From a virus: a DNA stretch of 22,318 nt. A model generated the notes under the pieces. It was given only the letters and a program-made list of their open reading frames with translations, had not been told where the DNA came from and ran no database searches. The stretch covers positions 1 to 22,318 of the IMG/VR virus record IMGVR_UViG_3300029448_000488; one strand, written 5' to 3'. The translations under genes and the position numbers were made by a program. Of the stretch, positions 157-22,053 are shown piece by piece. Every line of letters begins with the position of its first letter. The stretch's first letter is position 1.

Positions 157-399
157 ATGACATTAGAAGAATATAAAAAGGAAAACTACACCTCATACTA
201 TTCGTTTGGTCAAGCATTAGGAATTGAGGGGTATAACCCTGCTTGTTTATGCCAACGATGGTGTCTTACAGGCAACCCTAAATACTGGACTTTACCCAGT
301 AGCAAGTGGATGATTAAGATTGAGGAATTCACCAAAGGTGCTGTTACAATTTCTGATCTTGTAAAAGAACACGCAAGAAAGAAAGGTGAGCATGAATGA
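157..399 (+). CDS. Small Cro/YdaS-like helix-turn-helix protein
   Basis: This 80-residue protein is a probable DNA-binding regulator. Residues about 14-36 fit a helix-turn-helix (SFGQALGI, then QRWCLTGN). They are followed by a Pro-Ser, a helix MIKIEEFTKG and the ending AVTISDLV. That order is typical of Cro/YdaS-type repressors, which usually end in a motif like 'KIEKATGGKVT..DL'. The start is ATG at 157 behind AGGAG (149-153). It is the first gene after the candidate promoter at 100-127, next to a small palindrome, so it could regulate its own divergent promoter region. The assignment rests on pattern similarity. The Cys-rich middle (Cys30, Cys32, Cys36) is unusual for the family and could suggest a different fold. 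Confidence 0.55.
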   Translation: MTLEEYKKENYTSYYSFGQALGIEGYNPACLCQRWCLTGNPKYWTLPSSKWMIKIEEFTKGAVTISDLVKEHARKKGEHE

Positions 400-649
400 T
401 AAGTTCAGATTTGATCCAGTCAAAATTGAGTGGTTTGATATCAATGCTTCAGATGGGGGTTGGCAAACTGAAGATGAAATTAAAAACCATGAACCTGCAA
501 TCTGTTGTGACGTTTGTTATATTTATCACGAAGATGCTGATAAAGTTATTACTTTTAGTTCTTACAACTTGCATAGCGATGGTTCTATTGATTATGGTTT
601 TCTTACTGCATTTCCTAGAGGATGCATTAGAAAGATTACAAAGCTATGA
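392..649 (+). CDS. Small phage protein of unknown function
   Basis: This 85-residue acidic protein begins MNDKFRFDPVKIEWFD. The pattern is an early 'I-E-W-x-D', a Gly-Trp, then 'ICCDVCYIYHEDADKVI' and 'FPRGCIRKI' at the C-terminus. It resembles small beta-rich proteins found in many phages, in which a strand with an aromatic-Asp motif is followed by 'vGyli.ede..i' and 'iPr..I..i'. Their role is not known to me. The start is ATG 392, overlapping the previous stop by 8 nt with GGTGAG just upstream. GTG at 386 in the same frame is an alternative. Three Cys (CCxxC) lie mid-protein. Confidence 0.6.
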   Translation: MNDKFRFDPVKIEWFDINASDGGWQTEDEIKNHEPAICCDVCYIYHEDADKVITFSSYNLHSDGSIDYGFLTAFPRGCIRKITKL

Positions 650-864
650 ATGATGAACATAGAGGCGACTTGGATTTAGAAGTTAGGATTGATAAGTTGC
701 AAGATCAACTCAACGAATACGAGAAACTTGTAGGTAAATACGATGAAGAGAATGGAAACTTACAGGTTATCATTTCTAAATTGCAAGAAGAGAAACTAGA
801 ATTAAGAAAACAACTAGATCAACTACTACACGAAAGGAATGTAAGAGACTATGAGATACGCTAA
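646..864 (+). CDS. Short coiled-coil protein, unknown function
   Basis: This 72-residue protein is almost entirely predicted coiled coil. Heptad-like Leu/Ile spacing runs from about residue 11 to 62 (for example IDKLQDQLNEYEKLV and ISKLQEEKLELRKQL). It is highly charged, rich in Glu, Lys and Gln, with no Cys or Pro. ATG 646 overlaps the previous stop in an ATGA arrangement, which suggests translational coupling. There is no strong Shine-Dalgarno of its own. It could be an oligomerisation or adaptor protein. No family is recognised. Confidence 0.55.
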   Translation: MNDEHRGDLDLEVRIDKLQDQLNEYEKLVGKYDEENGNLQVIISKLQEEKLELRKQLDQLLHERNVRDYEIR

Positions 865-1234
865 ACACTTTAGTAAGGATTTATATTCAGCACGACACCG
901 AGACTTTGATGGTATCGCTATGGTTGATATTGACAGCGTTGAGATCTGTAAAAACTGGGGTTGCTGGAAGCCATTGGCAATAGTTGAAACTGTTTATGAT
1001 ACAGGTAACTATGTCAAGTATACAACTGTTAGTGAGTATATAGCTAGAGAGTTAAATATACCCTGTTTTTTAGTGTTTTATAAGAAAGGGTTAGGTCAGG
1101 GTCTATTTTATAAGATCAAGCAAATATACCCCTTTAAAAGGCGTTTAAGACCTGTTTCTGAGAGGGTTTGGATTACCTATTTGAGAAAGTTACAAGCGGA
1201 ACACCAAGTTGTTTGTAAACATGGCAGAAAATAG
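851..1234 (+). CDS. Possible PD-(D/E)XK nuclease-like protein lacking the catalytic Lys
   Basis: The protein has 127 residues. The N-terminus has His-Arg (16-17) followed by VDIDSVEI (25-32), then Pro-Leu-Ala-Ile-Val-Glu (41-46). A later segment reads 'ARELNIPCFLVFY' (65-77). This order (HR, DxD-x-(I/V)-E, PxAxxE, then 'A..L.IP.y.v.y') matches small phage proteins with a restriction-endonuclease-like core, where the second motif is normally ExK. Here it is Glu46-Thr-Val-Tyr, so the usual Lys is missing and the enzyme may be inactive or use another residue. Several Cys (33, 38, 72, 122) are present. It overlaps the coiled-coil gene by 14 nt and has AAGAG before its ATG. The family call is inference from motifs. 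Confidence 0.5.
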   Translation: MRYAKHFSKDLYSARHRDFDGIAMVDIDSVEICKNWGCWKPLAIVETVYDTGNYVKYTTVSEYIARELNIPCFLVFYKKGLGQGLFYKIKQIYPFKRRLRPVSERVWITYLRKLQAEHQVVCKHGRK

Positions 1235-1242
1235 GTATAATT

Positions 1243-1899
1243 GTGGCGAATAGATCGTTCTTACTGACAACTTATGTTCTTTATCACCACTTGGATAAGG
1301 TAAAAGGTCAGGCAAAGAGCAACTGCATCAATGTTTATATGTCTATTATGAAATATGCGTGGAAGCGGAACAATTATGAGTGTGGTTTAAGGCATAGCAC
1401 GATTGCAAAGGACACAGGTCTTTCTAGGTCTACCATTCACCGCACTTTGCTCACACTTGCCAAGCTAAATATACTGAAGATGATTAAAGGTAGGTCAGGA
1501 AAAACCTATCGTATAAATGCCGCATTTTTAGTACCTGAAAAGACTGGTATGTATAAATCTGACACATCAATGTATCAAATTGACACAAACAATGTGTCAA
1601 ATATACAGACATTAGAAGAACAATATATAACATTATACAATATACTTAAATCAGATAAAGATAAGTATGAAAAGATTGAACTGTTAAGTACACTCCCCCT
1701 TGCTGATCTTCAAAATAATTTAAAAAGAAATCCTTATTATATAAAGGAAGCCATCGCATTAAAAAGGGAAAACGAAAAGCCGAAAGTGGAACTGAATGCA
1801 GGTGCGGTGATGAAAAACTTAGCTAAAAAGAAGAACCCTTATTATGCGATGAAGAAAGCATATAATATTAGAAACAACATTAAACCATGGGAGGATTAA
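1243..1899 (+). CDS. Winged-helix (HTH_36-like) DNA-binding protein
   Basis: This 218-residue protein has a clear winged helix at residues about 45-95. LRHSTIAKDTGLSRSTIHR forms helix-turn-helix, followed by a third helix 'TLLTLAKLNILKMIKG' and a wing with 'RSGKTYRI'. This matches the HTH_36 type common in phage and plasmid replication-initiator-like proteins. The C-terminal half (100-218) is a charged linker with a short helical region, and it carries no recognisable helicase-loader motif. The start is GTG 1243 with AGGT 7 nt upstream. It lies between the nuclease-like gene and the terminase-side genes. It could act in replication initiation or as a transcription regulator. I cannot decide between these. 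Confidence 0.65.
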   Translation: MANRSFLLTTYVLYHHLDKVKGQAKSNCINVYMSIMKYAWKRNNYECGLRHSTIAKDTGLSRSTIHRTLLTLAKLNILKMIKGRSGKTYRINAAFLVPEKTGMYKSDTSMYQIDTNNVSNIQTLEEQYITLYNILKSDKDKYEKIELLSTLPLADLQNNLKRNPYYIKEAIALKRENEKPKVELNAGAVMKNLAKKKNPYYAMKKAYNIRNNIKPWED

Positions 1900-2313
1900 T
1901 TGGTAGGTAGACCTATGCAAAAAATCCTATGCCAAGGTAAGTCTAGGCAAACAGGTAAACCTTGTGGTTGTAAGGGTTACAGAACTGCAACAGGATTGTA
2001 CCTTTGCAAATATCATGGTGGACAAAATAGATTTGCATTTAACAAACACAAATATTCTGATAAAGCTAGGATTAGAAAACTAAAAGGACTTAAACAATTT
2101 AAAAATTACAGTGATGAAGAACTCAAAGAATACTATTACCAAAAAGTCAAACCAAGAATTGATAACAACGAACCAACTAGATACTATCTGCGAGAAACTC
2201 GTAAACGGACTGACTTTAGTAGAGATTTTAGAGGACAACCAGTATCAGTTCAGCTTGATGAAGTTCTACGCTTGGTTAAAAAAGAACCCAGAAATAGAAC
2301 AAAGAATCGTTGA
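1900..2313 (+). CDS. Cys/His (HGG-motif) small protein, overlaps terS
   Basis: The protein has 137 residues. The N-terminus has Cys11, Cys22, Cys24, Cys36 and His39 followed by Gly-Gly (Thr-Gly-Lys-Pro-Cys, then Cys-Lys-Tyr-His-Gly-Gly). This resembles the small zinc-binding 'C...GxPC...C..HGG' proteins that often sit just before phage terminase genes. Their role is not established. The middle (43-90) is basic. The start TTG 1900 directly follows the previous stop and sits 5 nt after a strong GGGAGGA. ATG 1915 in frame is the alternative. The last 203 nt overlap the terminase small subunit in another frame. From about residue 95 on the sequence is Arg-rich and looks like an antisense-free shadow of terS, so the useful part of this protein may be only the first 90 residues. 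Confidence 0.6.
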   Translation: MVGRPMQKILCQGKSRQTGKPCGCKGYRTATGLYLCKYHGGQNRFAFNKHKYSDKARIRKLKGLKQFKNYSDEELKEYYYQKVKPRIDNNEPTRYYLRETRKRTDFSRDFRGQPVSVQLDEVLRLVKKEPRNRTKNR

Positions 2314-2596
2314 AGCTAGAAAGCATGGGGTTCAAACACTGGTTGAAAAGATGCTTCGTATTTATGATACCAATAAAGTTCCTGATAATTCACTTATTTT
2401 GTTTCTTAGAGATAAACAAAGTTTCTTGAAATGGATCGCAGGTAAGATCACAGACATTTATTCAGACAACAAAGTTCAGCAAGTGAAACAGGACACTACG
2501 CTTAATGTTTCATGGCAAGATACATCAGATATAAAAGAGATTGAGGGGATTGTAGAAGAGATAGAAAAGCCTACCCCCCTCTACATTAAAGAATAA
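2111..2596 (+). CDS. terS: Terminase small subunit (DNA recognition)
   Basis: This 161-residue protein would bind viral DNA and pass it to the large subunit for packaging. Residues 22-60 form the DNA-binding helix-turn-helix (QLDTICEKLVNGLTLVEI, then FYAWLKKNPEI). The conserved stretch 'Q-R-I-V-E-A-R-KHG' (64-73) and the end 'FLKWIAGKITDIYSDN' (105-120) match the phage-type TerS family ('..W..k.pef...y..Ar......WlasKl.p..Yg'). The Glu-rich tail (137-152) could contact the large subunit. The start is uncertain: GTG 2111 or ATG 2114 has no Shine-Dalgarno nearby, and TTG 2159 is a further option just before the domain. It lies 203 nt inside the upstream gene in the +1 frame. The large subunit follows only after a 2.8 kb interruption. 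Confidence 0.75.
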   Translation: MMKNSKNTITKKSNQELITTNQLDTICEKLVNGLTLVEILEDNQYQFSLMKFYAWLKKNPEIEQRIVEARKHGVQTLVEKMLRIYDTNKVPDNSLILFLRDKQSFLKWIAGKITDIYSDNKVQQVKQDTTLNVSWQDTSDIKEIEGIVEEIEKPTPLYIKE

Positions 2597-2812
2597 TTAA
2601 TTTAATTTATTTTTATTTTTTTTTATTTTCATTGCCAATGAACTAATTTTTTGTGATGTTTTAGATCTTACATTAAACTTTTTTTCTAGTTTAAATTCAG
2701 TATCCCAAATATCAAGCAAAGAAATAAAACCATTTTTATTTTTAGAAATTTTATCAAATTCTTTGTAGATAAAATTAATCATTTTTAATTCTTTTTTTTC
2801 TTTCGCTTTCAT
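2597..2812 (-). CDS. Small basic protein, unknown function
   Basis: This 71-residue, Lys-rich protein (MKAKEKKELKMINFIYKEF at the N-terminus, ending KKNKNKLN) is mostly helical by composition. No family is recognised. It is the last gene of the leftward cassette. Its stop abuts the terS stop, so the two genes converge without a gap. ATG 2812 overlaps the upstream stop (TAATG), with GAGG about 7 nt before it, which indicates coupled translation. The U-rich stretch just beyond (2597-2635) has no GC-rich hairpin, so I do not call a terminator. Confidence 0.5.
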   Translation of the reverse strand: MKAKEKKELKMINFIYKEFDKISKNKNGFISLLDIWDTEFKLEKKFNVRSKTSQKISSLAMKIKKNKNKLN

Positions 2813-3051
2813 TACGCTACCTCTTTTTCATAGATGGTTTTATAATTATATTCATCGTTTACTTTGATGATGTCTATTCTTGTTTTTTTTATTTCATCTC
2901 CATCTTCAACCCACTTTGGATTTTCAATTTCATTATCAATCATACCCAAAGCTGATTGTTTAGATGTAGCGGTTACAGTCCAGCGATAAACAATTTCGCA
3001 GGTGTAATTCTTCCACTCACAATTTTTATAATCGTTTTTATTTAGTTTCAT
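2812..3051 (-). CDS. Small protein of unknown function
   Basis: This 79-residue protein begins MKLNKNDYKNCEWKNYTCE. The segment 'CEIVYRWTVTATSKQSAL' followed by 'IENPKWVEDGDEIKKTRIDIIKV' looks like a small alpha/beta fold. Its strand, 'A-short-side-chain' helix and strand order resembles small DpnD/PcfM-like proteins (a beta strand, then 'A.s..eA......'). That resemblance is weak. It has a good ribosome site, GAAAGGACCAACA, before its ATG, one of the repeated leaders of the cassette. The stop overlaps the next ATG. Confidence 0.5.
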   Translation of the reverse strand: MKLNKNDYKNCEWKNYTCEIVYRWTVTATSKQSALGMIDNEIENPKWVEDGDEIKKTRIDIIKVNDEYNYKTIYEKEVA

Positions 3052-3232
3052 TGTTGGTCCTTTCGTTGTTGTTATTTTGTTTTAATTTCTTGTATATCAT
3101 TTTTATAGATAGATCAAGATAATCTTTTTTTAATTTATTAACGCACATCTTTTTAAATAAACCACCACCAGACCAACAGTTCAAAAAGGTATCGCCTTTT
3201 AATTTGTTGATCTGATTGGTGGTCAATTTCAT
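3038..3232 (-). CDS. Small basic protein, unknown function
   Basis: This 64-residue, strongly basic protein begins MKLTTNQINKLKGDTFLNCW and has Gly-Gly-Gly-Leu-Phe in the middle. It ends in an Asn-rich tail (NNNNERTNNETK) encoded by the leader of the next gene. ATG 3232 overlaps the upstream stop (TAATG), and no separate Shine-Dalgarno is seen, so it probably depends on coupling. No family is recognised. Confidence 0.45.
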   Translation of the reverse strand: MKLTTNQINKLKGDTFLNCWSGGGLFKKMCVNKLKKDYLDLSIKMIYKKLKQNNNNERTNNETK

Positions 3233-3426
3233 TAGTTTGTTTTTTTAATATACGTTCCGTTATATTTATAAAAAGAATTATCTATTCTTTTATAATTTTT
3301 ATTTAAGTATCTCATGCAAGATAGAACAGATTTAAAACTTTCAATTTCTAAATCTAAATCTTTCCTTTCCTCAAACAATATAACTTCATTATCTCTTTCT
3401 ACTATTCCTAAATTATATTTTTTCAT
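3232..3426 (-). CDS. Small protein of unknown function
   Basis: This 64-residue protein begins MKKYNLGIVERDNEVILFEE. It has a pair of likely beta strands followed by a helix (SFKSVLSCMRYLNKNYKRI), and the layout suggests one small alpha/beta domain. A GAAAGGGAAATAAA leader precedes the ATG. That leader is also the coding end and stop codon of the 38-residue gene upstream. No family is recognised. Confidence 0.5.
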   Translation of the reverse strand: MKKYNLGIVERDNEVILFEERKDLDLEIESFKSVLSCMRYLNKNYKRIDNSFYKYNGTYIKKTN

Positions 3427-3427
3427 T

Positions 3428-3544
3428 TTATTTCCCTTTCTTTTTTGTTTTTTTTATTAGCTTGATTGTATTAGCAACAGTCATTGTCTTAGGCACAATG
3501 ATGCCGTATTTTTTGGCGAGTTCTTTTTGTATTGAGTATTTCAT
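3428..3544 (-). CDS. 38-residue basic peptide, unknown function
   Basis: Reading leftward from ATG 3544 gives 38 residues: MKYSIQKELAKKYGIIVP, then TMTVANTIKLI and a Lys-rich end. 'IQKELAKKYGIIVPKTMTV' could be a short helix-turn-helix-like segment, but the protein is too small to be sure. It is preceded by GAAAGGATAAT, the recurrent cassette leader. Its final codons (Lys-Gly-Lys-stop) form the leader of the next gene. The good ribosome site and fit between neighbours (1-nt gaps) support a real gene. Confidence 0.5.
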   Translation of the reverse strand: MKYSIQKELAKKYGIIVPKTMTVANTIKLIKKTKKKGK

Positions 3545-3545
3545 A

Positions 3546-3740
3546 TTATCCTTTCAGTTGTTTATTAATAATTTTATTTTCATTACTAATAATGTTTTTA
3601 CATTTTTTTTTAAAAAGTTTTTTTGCTTCAGTTAAATTATAACCAATATACCTTTCTTTTATGTAAAGCTCATGACCATATTTATTCATGATGAAATCAC
3701 TTAAAGTAAATCCATCAACATTATGTTTATTTATAATCAT
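3546..3740 (-). CDS. Small protein of unknown function
   Basis: This 64-residue protein begins MIINKHNVDGFTLSDFIMNK and continues with 'GHELYIKERYIGYNLTEAKKLFKKKCKN'. The strand, 'G.....A...F' helix order resembles a small alpha/beta unit, with 'Y-x-x-x-E-A-x-x-x-F' typical of a helix. It ends Gln-Leu-Lys-Gly-stop. Those last codons (AAAGGATAA) are the ribosome site of the next gene. A GAAAGGATAAAACAAA leader precedes its own ATG. Confidence 0.5.
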   Translation of the reverse strand: MIINKHNVDGFTLSDFIMNKYGHELYIKERYIGYNLTEAKKLFKKKCKNIISNENKIINKQLKG

Positions 3741-3762
3741 TTTGTTTTATCCTTTCTGTTGT

Positions 3763-3849
3763 TTAAAATTTTTGATCTACTTTGGTTAACACATAATAAC
3801 TTACAATAGCTGTTATAACTAAGATTAATATTCCAAGAACTGTTGTCAT
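3763..3849 (-). CDS. 28-residue single-span membrane peptide
   Basis: The peptide starts MTTVLGILILVITAIVSYY and ends with a short polar tail (LTKVDQKF). About 18 consecutive hydrophobic residues would span the inner membrane once. Its ATG overlaps the stop of the preceding gene in a TAATG, which strongly suggests coupled translation. Possible roles for such phage peptides include small holin-like or membrane-altering proteins, but the sequence shows only the membrane segment. It is shorter than usual gene-calling cutoffs. Confidence 0.5.
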   Translation of the reverse strand: MTTVLGILILVITAIVSYYVLTKVDQKF

Positions 3850-4001
3850 TATGCTACCTGCCTTTCAACAATTACTTTTTTAATTCCTTTACCATTTTTA
3901 TATGGAATTATTTTATATGGTGTTTTACTTTCTTGAGCTGTTTTTTGTAATTCTTTTAAATACAAATTCCAGTCGTTAGCTATTGTTTTTTGTTGTTGCA
4001 T
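3849..4001 (-). CDS. 50-residue basic protein, unknown function
   Basis: Reading leftward from ATG 4001 gives 50 residues. They begin MQQQKTIANDWNLYLKELQK and end 'KKVIVERQVA'. The N-terminal half is likely one helix, and the second half holds two short strands. A GAAAGGTAATACA leader (one of the repeated cassette leaders) gives a clear start. The stop overlaps the ATG of the 28-residue membrane peptide, so the two are probably co-translated. No family is recognised. Confidence 0.5.
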   Translation of the reverse strand: MQQQKTIANDWNLYLKELQKTAQESKTPYKIIPYKNGKGIKKVIVERQVA

Positions 4002-4024
4002 TGTATTACCTTTCTATTGTTGTT

Positions 4025-4246
4025 TTAATATTGAACTCTAATAAATTCATTATTATCATTGTAAATAGGAACACCATCTACAACTCTATAATAAGAAATT
4101 GATTTAAAAGAGCTGTGTTTTTTTAGTTCGTTTTTCTTTGGTGTAAATGTTGCATAACCAGTACCAAAGATTGAATTGAAATTAACATATTGAGTATCAA
4201 ATTTACCCTCTTTATTAATTCCATAACACTCAAAGTATCTTTGCAT
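4025..4246 (-). CDS. Small protein of unknown function
   Basis: This 73-residue protein begins MQRYFECYGINKEGKFDTQY and has many aromatic residues. It contains 'GTGYATFTPKKNELKKHSSF' and ends 'DNNEFIRVQY', so it is likely beta-rich. I chose ATG 4246 because it follows a strong GAAAGGATAAAACA leader. An upstream ATG at 4285 lies inside the -10 region of the candidate promoter (4276-4301) and is therefore unlikely. It is the first gene of the second leftward transcription unit. Confidence 0.55.
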   Translation of the reverse strand: MQRYFECYGINKEGKFDTQYVNFNSIFGTGYATFTPKKNELKKHSSFKSISYYRVVDGVPIYNDNNEFIRVQY

Positions 4247-4275
4247 TGTTTTATCCTTTCGTTGTTTATCTGTCG

Positions 4276-4301
4276 TATATATCAATTTTATATATAGTCA
4301 A
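4276..4301 (-). promoter_or_regulatory. Candidate leftward promoter for genes 4246 to 2597
   Basis: On the minus strand TTGACT (4301-4296) is followed after 14 nt by TATATA (4281-4276), with TG one base before (extended -10). With the alternative -10 TATACG the spacer is 16 nt. It lies about 30 nt upstream of the first gene and right after the terminator of the upstream unit. Its sequence closely parallels the promoter at 4822-4848. Confidence 0.55.
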
Positions 4302-4337
4302 TAGTTAAAATTAAAAAAAATAAAATTATTTTAAGCA

Positions 4338-4375
4338 TAAAAAAACCCCTGTTAAAAATTAATCTAACAGGGGTT
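4338..4375 (-). terminator. Rho-independent terminator of the 4788-4390 unit
   Basis: An 11-bp perfect stem (4344-4354 with 4365-4375; AACCCCTGTTA and its complement) with a 10-nt loop is followed, on the minus strand, by seven T. It sits 15 nt after the stop of the gene at 4390. The plus strand lacks a T tract after the stem, so the terminator acts leftward. Confidence 0.85.
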
Positions 4376-4389
4376 AATTTGTTTATTGG

Positions 4390-4584
4390 TTAATTATTTT
4401 TAGCGTAATTGTCGCAATGTTTTTCAGCTTCATTGATTGTCTTAACATTATAAACTGTAAAGCAATCTATTTCTTGATCTCTAACGCCTATCTCATCAAT
4501 AGGATAAACATTGAAAGTTGCTCCTCCATGCCAATCAATTTCAAAGAAATCATATTTAAAAGTTGTTTTTATTTCTTGTGCCAT
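4390..4584 (-). CDS. Small acidic protein, unknown function
   Basis: This 64-residue protein begins MAQEIKTTFKYDFFEIDWHG and contains 'FTVYNVKTINEAEKHCDNY'. Strands followed by 'INEAEKHCDNYAKN' resemble the compact proteins in which a beta sheet is closed by an 'eAe..C..ya' helix, seen in several small phage proteins of unknown role. GAAGGATAAAACAAA precedes the ATG, and the last codons of the upstream gene form that leader. The terminator at 4338-4375 follows it. Confidence 0.5.
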   Translation of the reverse strand: MAQEIKTTFKYDFFEIDWHGGATFNVYPIDEIGVRDQEIDCFTVYNVKTINEAEKHCDNYAKNN

Positions 4585-4590
4585 TTTGTT

Positions 4591-4788
4591 TTATCCTTCC
4601 ATTACTTGTTTAATTTCTATTATCTCATCTTGATAAACACAATTTGAACTTTTCCAGTCATTAATCCTTTCAAATAAATCTTTAAGATCATTTGAAAAAA
4701 AATGATTTAATTTTACATCATTTTCTTTTTTGTATTTAACAATGTAGTTGTAAAAACCATTAATTACTTGTGGTTTATTTTTTGTCAT
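4591..4788 (-). CDS. Small protein of unknown function
   Basis: This 65-residue protein begins MTKNKPQVINGFYNYIVKYK, contains 'LKDLFERINDWKSSNCVYQ' and ends in 'Val-Met-Glu-Gly'. Its last codons, GAA-GGA-TAA, are the ribosome site of the next gene. GAAAGGTAATAAA precedes its ATG. It is the first gene of the leftward cassette and lies downstream of the candidate promoter at 4822-4848. No family is recognised. Confidence 0.5.
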   Translation of the reverse strand: MTKNKPQVINGFYNYIVKYKKENDVKLNHFFSNDLKDLFERINDWKSSNCVYQDEIIEIKQVMEG

Positions 4789-4821
4789 TTTATTACCTTT
4801 CGTTTCATTGTTTTAAATATC

Positions 4822-4848
4822 AATATATCAGATTAATATATAAGTCAA
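4822..4848 (-). promoter_or_regulatory. Candidate leftward promoter for genes 4788 and 4584
   Basis: TTGACT (4848-4843 on the minus strand) is followed by a 15-nt spacer ending in TGA and by TATATT (4827-4822). This extended -10 arrangement parallels the promoter at 4276-4301 and the rightward one at 100-127. It lies 34 nt before the first gene of the cassette. Confidence 0.55.
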
Positions 4849-4978
4849 TACATAGAATTAAATTAATTTAAAAATATTATTGGTGTTGAAAGTTGCTATT
4901 CTTATCAAGACATCGCCGCATCCATTTCTCACAACATCAGCAACGGCTCAATAATATTTAAGACAACCTATAATATAT

Positions 4979-5003
4979 TTCCGATACTGTTTAGTTATCG
5001 GAA
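4979..5003. repeat. Inverted repeat, 8-bp arms
   Basis: TTCCGATA (4979-4986) and TATCGGAA (4996-5003) are perfect reverse complements separated by 9 nt. Neither strand has a convincing T tract after the stem, so an operator or RNA hairpin is more likely than a terminator. Confidence 0.7.
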
Positions 5004-5056
5004 CTATATTTATTAAGAAATATGTTGTTGTATTTTTGCAACAGTTGTTTTTTTAG

Positions 5057-5095
5057 ATTGGCGACCCCCCTATACCCCACAAAATGGTCGCCGAT
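5057..5095. repeat. Inverted repeat, 10-bp arms with C-rich loop
   Basis: ATTGGCGACC (5057-5066) pairs with GGTCGCCGAT (5086-5095), with one G-T wobble. The 19-nt loop is very C-rich (CCCC, TATA, CCCC). The right arm runs into the direct repeat CGATATAT (5092-5099, 5101-5108). It is about 320 bp before terL. Confidence 0.65.
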
Positions 5096-5130
5096 ATATA
5101 CGATATATTACATGGGACTGTAGGACACCT

Positions 5131-5174
5131 TTACACGAACACACACACCCCACACCCCACAAACAACCCACACC
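5131..5174. repeat. CA-rich low-complexity tract
   Basis: On the plus strand the stretch consists almost only of A and C (CACACACC, CCCCAC and similar units). The minus strand is correspondingly G/T-rich with three runs of three or more G, and two further G runs lie in 5065-5078. Such strand-biased tracts occur at phage packaging sites, origins or G-quadruplex-forming sites. Confidence 0.6.
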
Positions 5175-5181
5175 TTTTCCT

Positions 5182-5209
5182 TTGCTAGACCTCCTTTTCA
5201 AAATAATAT
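5182..5209 (+). promoter_or_regulatory. Candidate rightward promoter for the packaging/head genes
   Basis: TTGCTA (5182-5187), a 16-nt spacer and TAATAT (5204-5209) lie 19 nt before the gene at 5229. Each box matches four of six consensus bases and there is no extended -10 TG, so this is weaker than the three TGA-TATAT promoters. Its place at the head of a long rightward gene run is the main support. Confidence 0.35.
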
Positions 5210-5228
5210 TTTACTATATGTAGTAGGT

Positions 5229-5417
5229 ATGGATGAGTTTGATACTAAAGATATTAAATCAGTCGTTTACATTGATCCTAAAACAAACAATGTGGTGATT
5301 AAGATTACAGGTTTACCTAATGAAATGACCTCTATGATGTATATGGATTGGGTCATGGCAAGTCTTGGTTTTGAATATAATCCAGATAACAACTACGTTA
5401 CAGACACTGTTCACTAA
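5229..5417 (+). CDS. Small protein preceding terminase large subunit
   Basis: This 62-residue acidic protein begins MDEFDTKDIKSVVYIDPKTN. It continues 'VVIKITGLPNEMTSMMYMDW', a strand-strand-helix pattern, and ends in an Asp/Asn-rich tail. It resembles small proteins placed directly before terL in marine podoviruses. The function is unknown to me. Its TAA overlaps the terL ATG by one base (TAATG), which implies coupled translation and perhaps matched stoichiometry with the motor. AGTAGG lies just before the ATG. Confidence 0.65.
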   Translation: MDEFDTKDIKSVVYIDPKTNNVVIKITGLPNEMTSMMYMDWVMASLGFEYNPDNNYVTDTVH

Positions 5418-6688
5418 TGGAAGCTAAAATAGAATACACCCCTAGAAAATTTCAAAAGTATATACACTATCGTATCAATCAATATCGTTGGTCAGTGCTA
5501 GTTTGCCATAGAAGGTTTGGCAAAACCGTCTGTATGATTAATCATTTGATACGATCTGCAATGACGAGCAAACTCAAGAACCCTAGATTTGCTTATATTG
5601 CTCCAACCTTTAAACAAGCCAAATCTATTGCTTGGGATTACATGAAACAGTTTACCCAAAAGATACAAGGTACAAGATTTAACGAAACAGAACTTAGAGT
5701 AGATTTACCCAATGGTGCTAGAATTACCTTACTAGGTTCAGAGAACTGCGATGGATTAAGGGGTATTTATCTTGATGGTTGTGTGATTGATGAATATGCC
5801 AACGTCAATGAACGATTGTTTCCAGAGATTATTAGACCTGCACTCTCAGATAGAAAAGGTTACTGCGTATTTATTGGAACACCTCAAGGAATGAATAATA
5901 ACTTCTATGAGCTTTATCTTCATGCACAATCCGCAGACGATTGGTTTCATTACAAAGCCAGAGCCTCAGATACGAAGATTGTAGATCAAGAAGAGTTAGA
6001 TGCTGCACAAGCCATTATGGGTGAAAATAAGTTTAAGCAAGAGTTTGAATGTGAGTGGACGGCAAACATTGAAGGTGCAATTTATGGCAAGACCATAGCA
6101 GATATGGAGAACAGCAGACAAATTACTCGTGTGCCTTATGATCCTTCCTTGCCTGTCTATACCGCTTGGGACTTAGGGGTCTCAGATCACACGGCGATTA
6201 TCTTTTGGCAGCAACTAGGCAGATCCATTAATATTATAGATTACATTGAAGAACGAGGTCAGGGTTTACCTTTCTTTGTTCAGCTGATTAAAGAAAAAGA
6301 TTATGTCTATGCAGATCATTATGCACCCCATGATATTGAAGTGACTGACTTTGGTAATGGTAAGACCCGTAGAGAGGTCGCTTATCAATTAGGGGTGAGG
6401 TTCAAAGTCGTTCCAAAATTACCCCTAGAAGATGGAATACACGCAACCAGTATGTTGTTGCCAAGAGTTTGGATTGATGTAGATCATTGCAAAAAACTCA
6501 TAGATGCGTTAAGACATTATCACAGAAAGTACATAGACAAGAACAGGATGTTCAGATCTAAACCTGTACACGATTGGAGTAGTCATGCTTGTGATGCTAT
6601 GAGGTATCTTGCAGTTGGACTACAAGAACTTAATACTAGACAAACTGCACCACAAAGTGTAGCAGATAATGAATACAGGATTATATAA
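5417..6688 (+). CDS. terL: Terminase large subunit (packaging ATPase/nuclease)
   Basis: This 423-residue motor cuts concatemeric DNA and pumps it through the portal. The N-terminal ATPase has Walker A CHRRFGKT (30-37), Walker B GCVIDEYAN (121-129, Asp125-Glu126) and the coupling motif IGTPQG (153-158). The C-terminal RNase H-like nuclease has AWDLGVSDHTAIIF (250-263, Asp252), a middle acidic position in YADHYAPHD (298-306) and HDWSSHACDAMRY (385-397, Asp393). Length and motif order are those of a complete podovirus TerL. It starts by TAATG overlap with the small gene before it. The small subunit is unusually distant (ends at 2596). Confidence 0.95.
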   Translation: MEAKIEYTPRKFQKYIHYRINQYRWSVLVCHRRFGKTVCMINHLIRSAMTSKLKNPRFAYIAPTFKQAKSIAWDYMKQFTQKIQGTRFNETELRVDLPNGARITLLGSENCDGLRGIYLDGCVIDEYANVNERLFPEIIRPALSDRKGYCVFIGTPQGMNNNFYELYLHAQSADDWFHYKARASDTKIVDQEELDAAQAIMGENKFKQEFECEWTANIEGAIYGKTIADMENSRQITRVPYDPSLPVYTAWDLGVSDHTAIIFWQQLGRSINIIDYIEERGQGLPFFVQLIKEKDYVYADHYAPHDIEVTDFGNGKTRREVAYQLGVRFKVVPKLPLEDGIHATSMLLPRVWIDVDHCKKLIDALRHYHRKYIDKNRMFRSKPVHDWSSHACDAMRYLAVGLQELNTRQTAPQSVADNEYRII

Positions 6689-20676: not shown

Positions 20677-22053
20677 ATGACAATATCATCTACAACAGTT
20701 AGAAATTCATACTCAGGTGACGGATCTACTACTGCGTTTAATTACACATTTAAGATATTTGAGAATAGCGATCTTGAGGTTATTTTAAGAACAGACTCTA
20801 CAGGTTCAGAAACTGTACAGACAATCACAACCCACTACACCATGACAGGTGCTGGGAATGCAAATGGTGGAACAGTAACTTTTGTCACTGCTCCTGCAAG
20901 TGGTATTACAGTTGTTCTTAGAAGAGCTATCCCGCAAACTCAAGCAATAGATTATATTGCGAATGATCCTTTTCCTGCGGAGAGCCATGAAGAGGGATTG
21001 GATCGCTCAATGATGGCAATTCAACAACTTCAAGAAGAAGTGAATCGTACTATTAAGTTTTCTAAAACCAATGACTTTAATTCTAATGCTGAAGATGCAG
21101 GTACATTTACTGTAGGTCAAACTACAAGATCAGGAAAGATTTTAGCTTTTGATGAGAATGGAGATATATCGGTTACTCAAGAGATTGGTACTTATCAAGG
21201 TACAGATACCACAACAACAACTTCAAACTATAACGTAAGAGATTTAATTAAATCAACATCAACCAATGAACTCAACAATGTTTATATCTGTACAGCAGAT
21301 AGTGTAGCAGGTGATTTACTCACTGATACCGATCACTTTGAACTCATTATTGATGCAGTTACAGCGGCAACGTCTGCAACGAATGCAGCAGCTTCTGCGA
21401 CAGCGGCAGCAAACTCAGCTACAGCTGCAGCCACATCAGAATCCAACGCTGCTACCTCTGAGTCTAATGCAAGTACATCAGAGACTAACGCATCCACAAG
21501 TGAAACCAATGCAGGAACATCAGAAACGAATGCAGCAAACAGTGCAACCGCAGCTGCATCATCTGCGACTTCAGCATCTAGCTCTGCTACGACTGCTACA
21601 ACAAAAGCAAGTGAAGCATCAACTTCAGCTACCAATGCTGCAACGAGTGCAACTAATGCTTCAACTTCAGAAACTAATGCTGCAACGAGTGCAAGCAACG
21701 CAAGTACGTCAGAAACCAATGCTGCCACTTCAGCTTCTAATGCTTCTACTTCAGAGACGAATGCGGCTACATCAGCAACCTCAGCTTCTAATGCTCAGAC
21801 TGCTGCGGAAGCGGCTCAGGCAGCGGCAGAACTAGCGGCAGATAATTTTGATGATACTTACCTTGGTGCAAAAGCCTCTGATCCTACAGTGGATAACGAT
21901 GGGGATGCTTTAAATGCTGGAGATTTATATTTTAATACAACATCAAATGTTCTTAAATATTACGATGGATCATCATGGAACAATATAGAAGCTGTTGATA
22001 CATCTAATTTAGCAACAAACGGATTCGCTATTGCTATGGCAATCGCATTATAA
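20677..22053 (+). CDS. Tail fibre protein with T7-type N-terminus and repeat shaft
   Basis: The protein has 458 residues. The N-terminus 1-130 ('NSYSGDGSTTAFNYTFKIFE', 'TFVTAPASGITVVLRRAIPQ', 'MAIQQLQEEVNRTIKFS') is the T7 gp17 N-terminal tail-attachment domain. Residues about 229-390 are an Ala/Ser/Thr/Asn repeat rod ('TSETNAA', 'TSASNAS' heptads), typical of phage fibre shafts. 'YLGAKASDPTVDNDGDALNA' and 'GDLYFNTTSNVLKYYDGSSW' form a widespread small fibre module. The final residues are hydrophobic (FAIAMAIAL). No large receptor-binding tip is present, so it may pair with the next gene product. AGGATAACC precedes the ATG. Confidence 0.85.
   Translation: MTISSTTVRNSYSGDGSTTAFNYTFKIFENSDLEVILRTDSTGSETVQTITTHYTMTGAGNANGGTVTFVTAPASGITVVLRRAIPQTQAIDYIANDPFPAESHEEGLDRSMMAIQQLQEEVNRTIKFSKTNDFNSNAEDAGTFTVGQTTRSGKILAFDENGDISVTQEIGTYQGTDTTTTTSNYNVRDLIKSTSTNELNNVYICTADSVAGDLLTDTDHFELIIDAVTAATSATNAAASATAAANSATAAATSESNAATSESNASTSETNASTSETNAGTSETNAANSATAAASSATSASSSATTATTKASEASTSATNAATSATNASTSETNAATSASNASTSETNAATSASNASTSETNAATSATSASNAQTAAEAAQAAAELAADNFDDTYLGAKASDPTVDNDGDALNAGDLYFNTTSNVLKYYDGSSWNNIEAVDTSNLATNGFAIAMAIAL
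21367..21840 (+). repeat. Heptad-repeat coding region of the fibre shaft
   Basis: DNA coding for Ala/Ser/Thr/Asn/Glu heptads. The longest conserved unit is 14 residues (NASTSETNAATSAS), present in near-identical copies at about residues 327-355. Synonymous bases vary between copies, so the repeat is old or under selection at the protein level. It produces spurious open frames on both strands. Confidence 0.85.

Follow-up and report, generated by a model that had tools for sequence, protein, structure and literature searches.

A clade-wide array of small, rapidly replaced genes separates terS from terL in HTVC010P-type pelagiphages

Introduction

The early region of bacteriophage T7 comprises small genes of varied content that are served by promoters of host type and end at a terminator, and its gene 0.3 encodes Ocr. 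Small early genes of phages such as T7 and T4 often act on the machinery of the host. In T4-type phages small genes are said to be shuffled by mobile promoter/stem-loop cassettes, reportedly described by Arbiol et al. in 2010. Archaeal viruses have early anti-defence clusters, in which unrelated small accessory genes, known anti-defence genes among them, are provided with common early regulatory sequences (PMC11065993).

For HTVC010P-like phages, the hypervariable genomic islands reported in the parts of the literature cited here are tail-fibre or receptor regions (PMC3909814, PMC6487183, PMC10504331), and those parts of the three papers contain no description of an array between terS and terL. 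Passages of one of them note that terminase subunits under-recruit, and offer no explanation (PMC3909814).

Results

The phage and the locus

The window, i.e. the whole stretch of DNA analysed here, is 22,318 nucleotides long (positions 1-22,318 of IMG/VR record IMGVR_UViG_3300029448_000488), and the array of small genes occupies 2597-4788. The phage is an oceanic, SAR11-infecting pelagiphage of the HTVC010P type. Its TerL is 78-84% identical at the amino acid level to those of HTVC010P-type isolates and falls inside their clade, and the gene layout around terS and terL is the same as in these isolates and in IMG/VR loci. The terminase genes are separated by 2.8 kb, and in addition to the array this interval contains a rightward gene of 62 aa and a conserved non-coding region.

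2111-2596, plus strand: TerS, terminase small subunit (PHROG 1482, E 3.7e-13; homologues in all relatives)
4860-5228, no strand: non-coding control region, conserved in the alignment of relatives
5229-5417, plus strand: conserved 62-aa gene before terL, present in all HTVC010P-type loci tested
5417-6688, plus strand: TerL, terminase large subunit (several terminase PHROGs)

The putative start of terS gives an overlap of 203 nt with the upstream gene. An attempt to locate the physical ends of the genome as cos or pac sites placed none.

Eleven small coding genes

A preliminary description of this DNA had terS and terL split by leftward genes of 28-79 aa. This is confirmed by the identification of TerS and TerL with PHROGs, and by the presence of exactly 11 leftward ATG-initiated open reading frames in 2597-4788, encoding 65, 64, 73, 50, 28, 64, 38, 64, 64, 79 and 71 aa from mini-gene 11 to mini-gene 1. 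Their spacing is -14 to +23 nt, except for one gap of 143 nt.

2597-2812, minus strand: mini-gene 1, 71 aa; Shine-Dalgarno motif; homologue in the L075 array (70% aa, dN 0.29 / dS 1.43)
2812-3051, minus strand: mini-gene 2, 79 aa; Shine-Dalgarno motif; homologue searches empty
3038-3232, minus strand: mini-gene 3, 64 aa; the only one lacking a Shine-Dalgarno motif; homologue in the L007 array (75% aa)
3232-3426, minus strand: mini-gene 4, 64 aa; Shine-Dalgarno motif; missing in L007
3428-3544, minus strand: mini-gene 5, 38 aa; L007 homologue (91% aa, dN 0.087 / dS 0.48)
3546-3740, minus strand: mini-gene 6, 64 aa; indel relative to L007; homologues in L052 (66% aa) and in L131 (75%), the array of another phage type
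3763-3849, minus strand: mini-gene 7, 28 aa; one hydrophobic segment; L007 homologue (82% aa, dN 0.081 / dS 0.24)
3849-4001, minus strand: mini-gene 8, 50 aa; Shine-Dalgarno motif
4025-4246, minus strand: mini-gene 9, 73 aa; Shine-Dalgarno motif; would open the second transcription unit
4390-4584, minus strand: mini-gene 10, 64 aa; L096 homologue (55% aa, dN 0.40 / dS 1.49)
4591-4788, minus strand: mini-gene 11, 65 aa; Shine-Dalgarno motif; would open the first transcription unit

The DNA has a G+C content of 24% and database matches are missing for most of the frames, so they might be chance open reading frames in AT-rich sequence, in a region serving control or packaging only. We regard this as extremely improbable. 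A Shine-Dalgarno motif is found for 10 of the 11 mini-genes and, by the same rule, for none on the opposite strand; dinucleotide shuffles gave a mean of 0.29 such genes and a maximum of 2. Pairs of mini-gene homologues show purifying selection, with a pooled pN/pS of 0.32, and the frames are tightly tiled, covering 91% of the region.

Searches of PHROGs (all eleven proteins) and Pfam (the ten other than the 28-aa protein) gave no function for any of them, in agreement with the original assessment. Mini-gene 11 has a weak match to PHROG 36694, a family of unknown function; an eight-member family including it was dropped, as it depends on one weak link. The product of mini-gene 10 is predicted to have four strands and one helix (pLDDT 82), and a structure search with this model returned matches at background level only. 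Scans of IMG/VR with single mini-proteins yielded 0 or 1 relative each, which agrees with fast turnover.

Promoter-like elements, terminator and control region

4822-4848, minus strand: promoter-like element P1, TTGACT ... TATATT, a duplicated element
4344-4375, minus strand: intrinsic terminator, 13-bp stem and T tract; hairpin shared with L007 (in a 94% block) and resembling those of L012 and L013
4276-4301, minus strand: promoter-like element P2, TTGACT ... TATATA, the second copy of P1

A plain scan with the sigma-70 consensus found 24 sites where 28 were expected. Since this is no better than chance, promoters were judged by the duplicated element (consensus TTGACT/TATATW) and by the relatives. 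Across the latter there are 15 leftward promoter-like elements and 0 rightward, where shuffled sequences gave 3.5 on average and 7 at most; the elements are located in a minority of the relatives. The block had been thought to possess its own promoters and a strong terminator. The duplicated promoter-like element and the terminator are in line with this, but the terminator is internal; it comes behind the second of the genes to be transcribed, with the second promoter-like copy beyond it, which points to two leftward transcription units and not one. The same promoter-terminator-promoter arrangement is retained in L007, around different genes. One RNA-seq study used pelagiphages of types other than HTVC010P (PMC12753301).

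The control region contains hairpins at 4979-5003 and 5060-5092, with a core near 5065-5130. A hairpin of this kind is also present in the terS-terL spacer of HTVC106P. The core was considered as a repeated late promoter and rejected, there being at most one site per genome.

The array in the clade and its sister groups

terS and terL are 1.4-5.1 kb apart in all 55 of the 55 distinct HTVC010P-type loci that have both genes. They are adjacent in the sister groups HTVC028P, HTVC106P and L145/L146/L151, as had been anticipated for genomes without the cassette, and some members of these groups have an array directly behind terS. On this comparison of layouts the terS-terL split is a derived, clade-wide trait.

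The adjacency in the sister groups, together with the block's own promoter-like sequences and its opposite orientation, could indicate a self-contained mobile unit inserted between terS and terL, as first proposed. We now consider this improbable. The block is at the same site in every HTVC010P-type locus tested, and it varies gene by gene and not as a whole. No recombinase gene was found among the 11 window proteins or in the Pfam and PHROG matches obtained with 116 representatives of array families, and no end repeats of a mobile unit were seen. Moreover, because the sister-group array sits beside terS, a movement of terS past the array is equally possible and as simple.

Gene turnover, order and junctions

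Array genes are shared far less often than downstream genes, as expected of a locus of turnover. At TerL identities of at least 99%, 34% of array genes are shared compared with 93% of size-matched downstream genes; at identities of 75-93% the corresponding values are 3-4% and 71-78%, again size-matched. The arrays of 52 loci contain 192-220 (approximately 200) families, more than half of them singletons.

The order of shared genes is concordant in 456 pairs and discordant in 0 (154 and 0 where TerL identity is below 90%), which in part reflects common ancestry. The preliminary description held that relatives always carrying the same small genes in the same order would speak against it; there is no conflict of order, but most of the genes themselves differ. 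Since shared genes are never reordered, they would come and go in place and not be shuffled. The array resembles the T4-type cassettes in its promoter-terminator units and in its small interchangeable genes, which are separated by repeated intergenic elements; it differs in its fixed order (456 against 0), and in that most junctions consist of a ribosome-binding site only.

Ends of homology blocks lie no more than 15 nt from the start or stop of a gene in 71% of cases, against 17%; faster divergence of the non-coding junctions could be a partial cause. One such junction is repeated.

3538-3564, minus strand: ribosome-binding junction repeat, copy 1, before mini-gene 5; 27-nt direct repeat
3739-3765, minus strand: ribosome-binding junction repeat, copy 2, before mini-gene 6

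The copies are 85% identical and spaced by 201 nt, and L007 has one copy. The repeated junction flanks the mini-gene 6 indel that distinguishes the two arrays.

Anti-restriction genes at the same site

An Ocr-like gene is found in the terS-terL slot of relatives, L076 and L025 among them, though it is absent from the window itself. It scores 26.5 bits in Pfam (cut-off 25) and matches PHROG 2568 with E 4.1e-16, and a profile search of the PDB returned T7 Ocr as the sole match (E 2.7e-5). Compared with Ocr chains, the predicted structure (pLDDT 70) gives a Z of 2.1-2.4 and a Foldseek E of 7.9, values that do not exceed background. Eighteen of 24 Ocr relatives are in the terS-terL slot, and four are in the sister layout. 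L110 has a DNA methyltransferase in the slot. Anti-restriction assignments extend to few of the approximately 200 array families. PADLOC matches of array families all had E 0.002 or worse, and were discarded.

These genes fit the initial guess that such a cluster harbours host-takeover or anti-defence proteins. Alternatively, this could be a hypervariable locus serving host adaptation, its products acting chiefly to adjust transcription and metabolism of the host or superinfection, and anti-defence genes riding along only now and then. Most families have no assignment, and small early genes in other phages frequently target host machinery, as this would require; by contrast, the confidently named families of known function (Ocr-like and DNA methyltransferase) are of anti-restriction type, and we think the alternative rather unlikely.

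The locus is like the T7 early region in its small genes of varied content, its promoter-like elements and terminator, and the Ocr-like gene in the slot of relatives. It is unlike it in position, the array being in the terS-terL interval, on the opposite strand and with no phage RNA polymerase gene after it, and in the lack of Ocr in the window. With the archaeal virus clusters (PMC11065993) it has in common unrelated small accessory genes under shared regulatory sequences, some of known anti-defence type; there, however, the element stands in front of single genes and timing comes from measurement, whereas the array comprises two probable operons for which early timing is inferred.

Discussion

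We favour, with a probability of about 0.62, the reading that the array is an early, host-transcribed anti-defence or takeover locus that has diversified in place by gain, loss and exchange of genes. The block would be the small-gene accessory locus of the phage, made up of a pair of leftward operons that each have a copy of the same host-type (sigma-70-like) promoter in front, with an intrinsic terminator between them. Host RNA polymerase probably transcribes both soon after entry of the DNA, and the small proteins may neutralize the defences of the host or redirect it; we infer such an anti-defence role for the window's own 11 proteins from their locus. Single genes would be gained, lost and replaced in place, the exchanged segments ending at the ribosome-binding junctions before each gene, by recombination between phages having an array at the same site. 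The nuclease and the single-strand-annealing protein that belong to this group of phages might assist in this. Gene order would be retained, while content changes at a far higher rate than elsewhere in the genome.

A more specific form of this is tentative, though quite conceivable. The array could be an order-preserving, open-ended anti-defence array in which ribosome-binding junctions act as short recombination sites, so that these phages trade single defence-countering genes in place from a common pool, also with phages of other types. Crossovers in the array would then bring together terS and terL in new combinations as well.

Phages of the HTVC010P type rank among the sea's most abundant viruses. 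A fixed address with approximately 200 rotating families of small genes, some of anti-restriction type, would provide a testable list of anti-defence candidates. The under-recruitment of terminase genes in marine viromes (PMC3909814) might also be explained in part by the decoupling of terS and terL across the array.

Gene layout of the terS-terL interval

By sequence, the window phage is an HTVC010P-type pelagiphage; its TerL has 78-84% amino acid identity with isolates of the HTVC010P group and is placed inside their clade. The genes and regions discussed here are:

1900-2313, gene upstream of terS, with an HGG motif and zinc-ribbon-like
2111-2596, TerS, matching PHROG 1482 (terminase small subunit; E 3.7e-13)
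2597-4788, leftward, array of mini-genes 1-11, numbered from the terS end
4860-5228, non-coding control region
5229-5417, rightward, 62-aa gene
5417-6688, TerL, matching several terminase families
20677-22053, tail-fibre-like protein that includes a long stretch of NAATSATNASTSE-type repeats

The preliminary description had eleven leftward mini-genes separating terS from terL, and exactly 11 leftward ORFs (28-79 aa) are indeed found there; they overlap or are separated by short gaps, and together they occupy 91% of 2597-4788. The 62-aa gene and the non-coding region also lie between the array and TerL. We note that the TerS frame and the gene before it share 203 nt, read in different frames; the annotated TerS of the isolates ('DNA binding protein') is shorter, with a smaller overlap.

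The array frames are genes. A single rule (ATG ORF of at least 28 aa plus a Shine-Dalgarno motif) was applied to both strands and to shuffled sequence, giving 10 leftward and no rightward genes in the window array, against a mean of 0.29 and a maximum of 2 in 300 dinucleotide shuffles. In relatives the motif precedes 53-74% of leftward ORFs of at least 40 aa, compared with 1-3% of rightward ORFs of 25-80 aa. Five window mini-gene pairs have dN/dS of ~0.18-0.33. The possibility that the frames are not translated is contradicted by the Shine-Dalgarno excess over shuffles and by a pooled pN/pS of 0.32 (274 homologous mini-gene pairs; <0.7 in 99% of them).

Gene turnover, order and junctions

Turnover was measured pairwise between loci using size-matched small genes (28-130 aa, preceded by a Shine-Dalgarno motif). 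Where TerL identity is at least 99%, a homologue is present in the partner locus for 34% of array genes, versus 72% of the genes upstream of terS and 93% of those downstream of terL; at 75-93% identity these values are 3-4%, 36-42% and 71-78%. Depending on how they are clustered, the array genes of 52 loci form 192-220 families, with the curve still climbing, and 124 of 192 occur once. Homologues of array genes sit in an array in 1189 of 1212 cases, within fetched stretches centred on the locus rather than genome-wide. A copy of mini-gene 6 (75% identity) lies in the array of L131, which is of another phage type and has a different TerS; there a long mini-gene array (269-5234) points away from a terS of another family. 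The array of L086 (HTVC024P) includes a 256-aa GP88-family protein (624-1394; Pfam E 5.8e-52), far larger than its neighbours.

Among pairs of shared array genes, 456 are concordant in order and none is discordant; 154 of the concordant pairs come from phages with TerL <90% identical. None of 124 family pairs co-occurring more than once conflicts in order (shuffles: mean 74.8, minimum 58). This argues against shuffling, although shared ancestry explains part of it. Thus of the pattern that was to count against an inserted cassette, i.e. the same small genes in the same order in relatives, the order is kept but gene content is mostly different.

Between close relatives, 71% of homology-block ends lie no more than 15 nt from the start or stop of a gene, versus 17% at random. 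The clearest case is L007, a relative with TerL 98% and TerS 96% identical to those of the window, which has mini-genes 7, 5 and 3 in the same order and lacks 6 and 4. Mini-gene 6 is flanked by a 27-nt direct repeat containing the ribosome-binding junction TAAACAAC[AT]GAAAGGATAA, and L007 has one copy of the repeat at this site. Junctions can also be retained in front of different genes: positions 2807-2826 are identical in both phages, and the downstream genes differ. As a guess from annotation in isolates, the nuclease and single-strand-annealing protein of the group might drive these changes.

Origin of the split

In all 55 distinct HTVC010P-type loci that contain both terS and terL, the two are separated by a gap of 1.4-5.1 kb. 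Outside the clade, where we looked for adjacency as the preliminary description proposed, the spacing is 398 nt in HTVC028P (joined across record ends), 476 nt in HTVC106P and ~480 nt in podovirus ctXG6705, which has a TerS of a different PHROG. In the sister group (L145, L146 and L151; TerL ~50% identical) terS adjoins terL, and directly behind terS, on the opposite strand, begins an array that includes an Ocr-like gene. Because the gap is in all 55 HTVC010P-type loci and the genes are close or adjacent in the phages compared from outside the clade, the split is derived and clade-wide. It could have arisen either by the array moving past terS or by terS moving past the array; the suggested insertion of a self-contained unit in this phage is not supported, as the split is not peculiar to this phage and movement of terS is equally possible. 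In ctXG6705, from spring water, 13 leftward mini-genes lie directly upstream of terS, beside the terminase genes (L129, 1369-4071).

The control region adjoining the 62-aa gene has remained with terL. It is strongly conserved and has two hairpins; the terS-terL spacer of HTVC106P contains a hairpin (TTCCGATA...TATCGGAA) of the same kind as one of them. The region may serve in packaging, as an origin or as a late promoter.

Transcription and function

A promoter-like TTGACT/TATATW element precedes both mini-gene 11 and mini-gene 9, and a strong terminator lies between mini-genes 10 and 9. The proposal that the block has its own promoters and a strong terminator agrees with these sequence signals, but the terminator is internal. 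L007 keeps the layout of promoter, gene, terminator, promoter, genes, with different genes. Relatives have 15 leftward and 0 rightward promoter-like sites (shuffles: mean 3.5), present in a minority of loci. We infer early expression of the array; an RNA-seq study of pelagiphages covered other pelagiphage types (PMC12753301).

As the preliminary description reported, none of the 11 window mini-proteins has a recognised function. We surveyed 116 family representatives taken from this slot in relatives, and these include a DNA methyltransferase and an Ocr-like anti-restriction protein, whose Pfam match exceeds the cut-off. The L145 copy of the latter matches a PHROG with E 4.1e-16, and T7 Ocr was the sole match in a PDB profile search. 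When a model of the Ocr-like protein was compared by fold, Ocr chains did not rise above background. Among 24 IMG/VR relatives of Ocr, 18 are in the terS-terL slot, and the sister layout accounts for 4. The expectation of a host-takeover or anti-defence site is therefore supported by the slot in relatives, but not by the window proteins, for which such a role is putative. On the best reading, the array would be an early accessory locus including anti-defence genes, and we propose that in this phage group it works like the early region of T7.

Hypervariable small-gene loci with anti-defence genes are already known. As far as the literature examined shows, the location of such a locus between terS and terL, the size-matched turnover measure, the kept order and the link to Ocr are new.

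Comparison of loci indicates that, across the array, terS has been reassorted relative to terL. TerL is identical in L015 and L017, whose TerS proteins are only 34% identical, and L077 shows the same pattern with L097 and L100 (over all these relatives, TerL 97-100% and TerS 34-38%). Terminase genes under-recruit in marine viromes, an observation reported without explanation (PMC3909814); one cause may be crossing over at the array.
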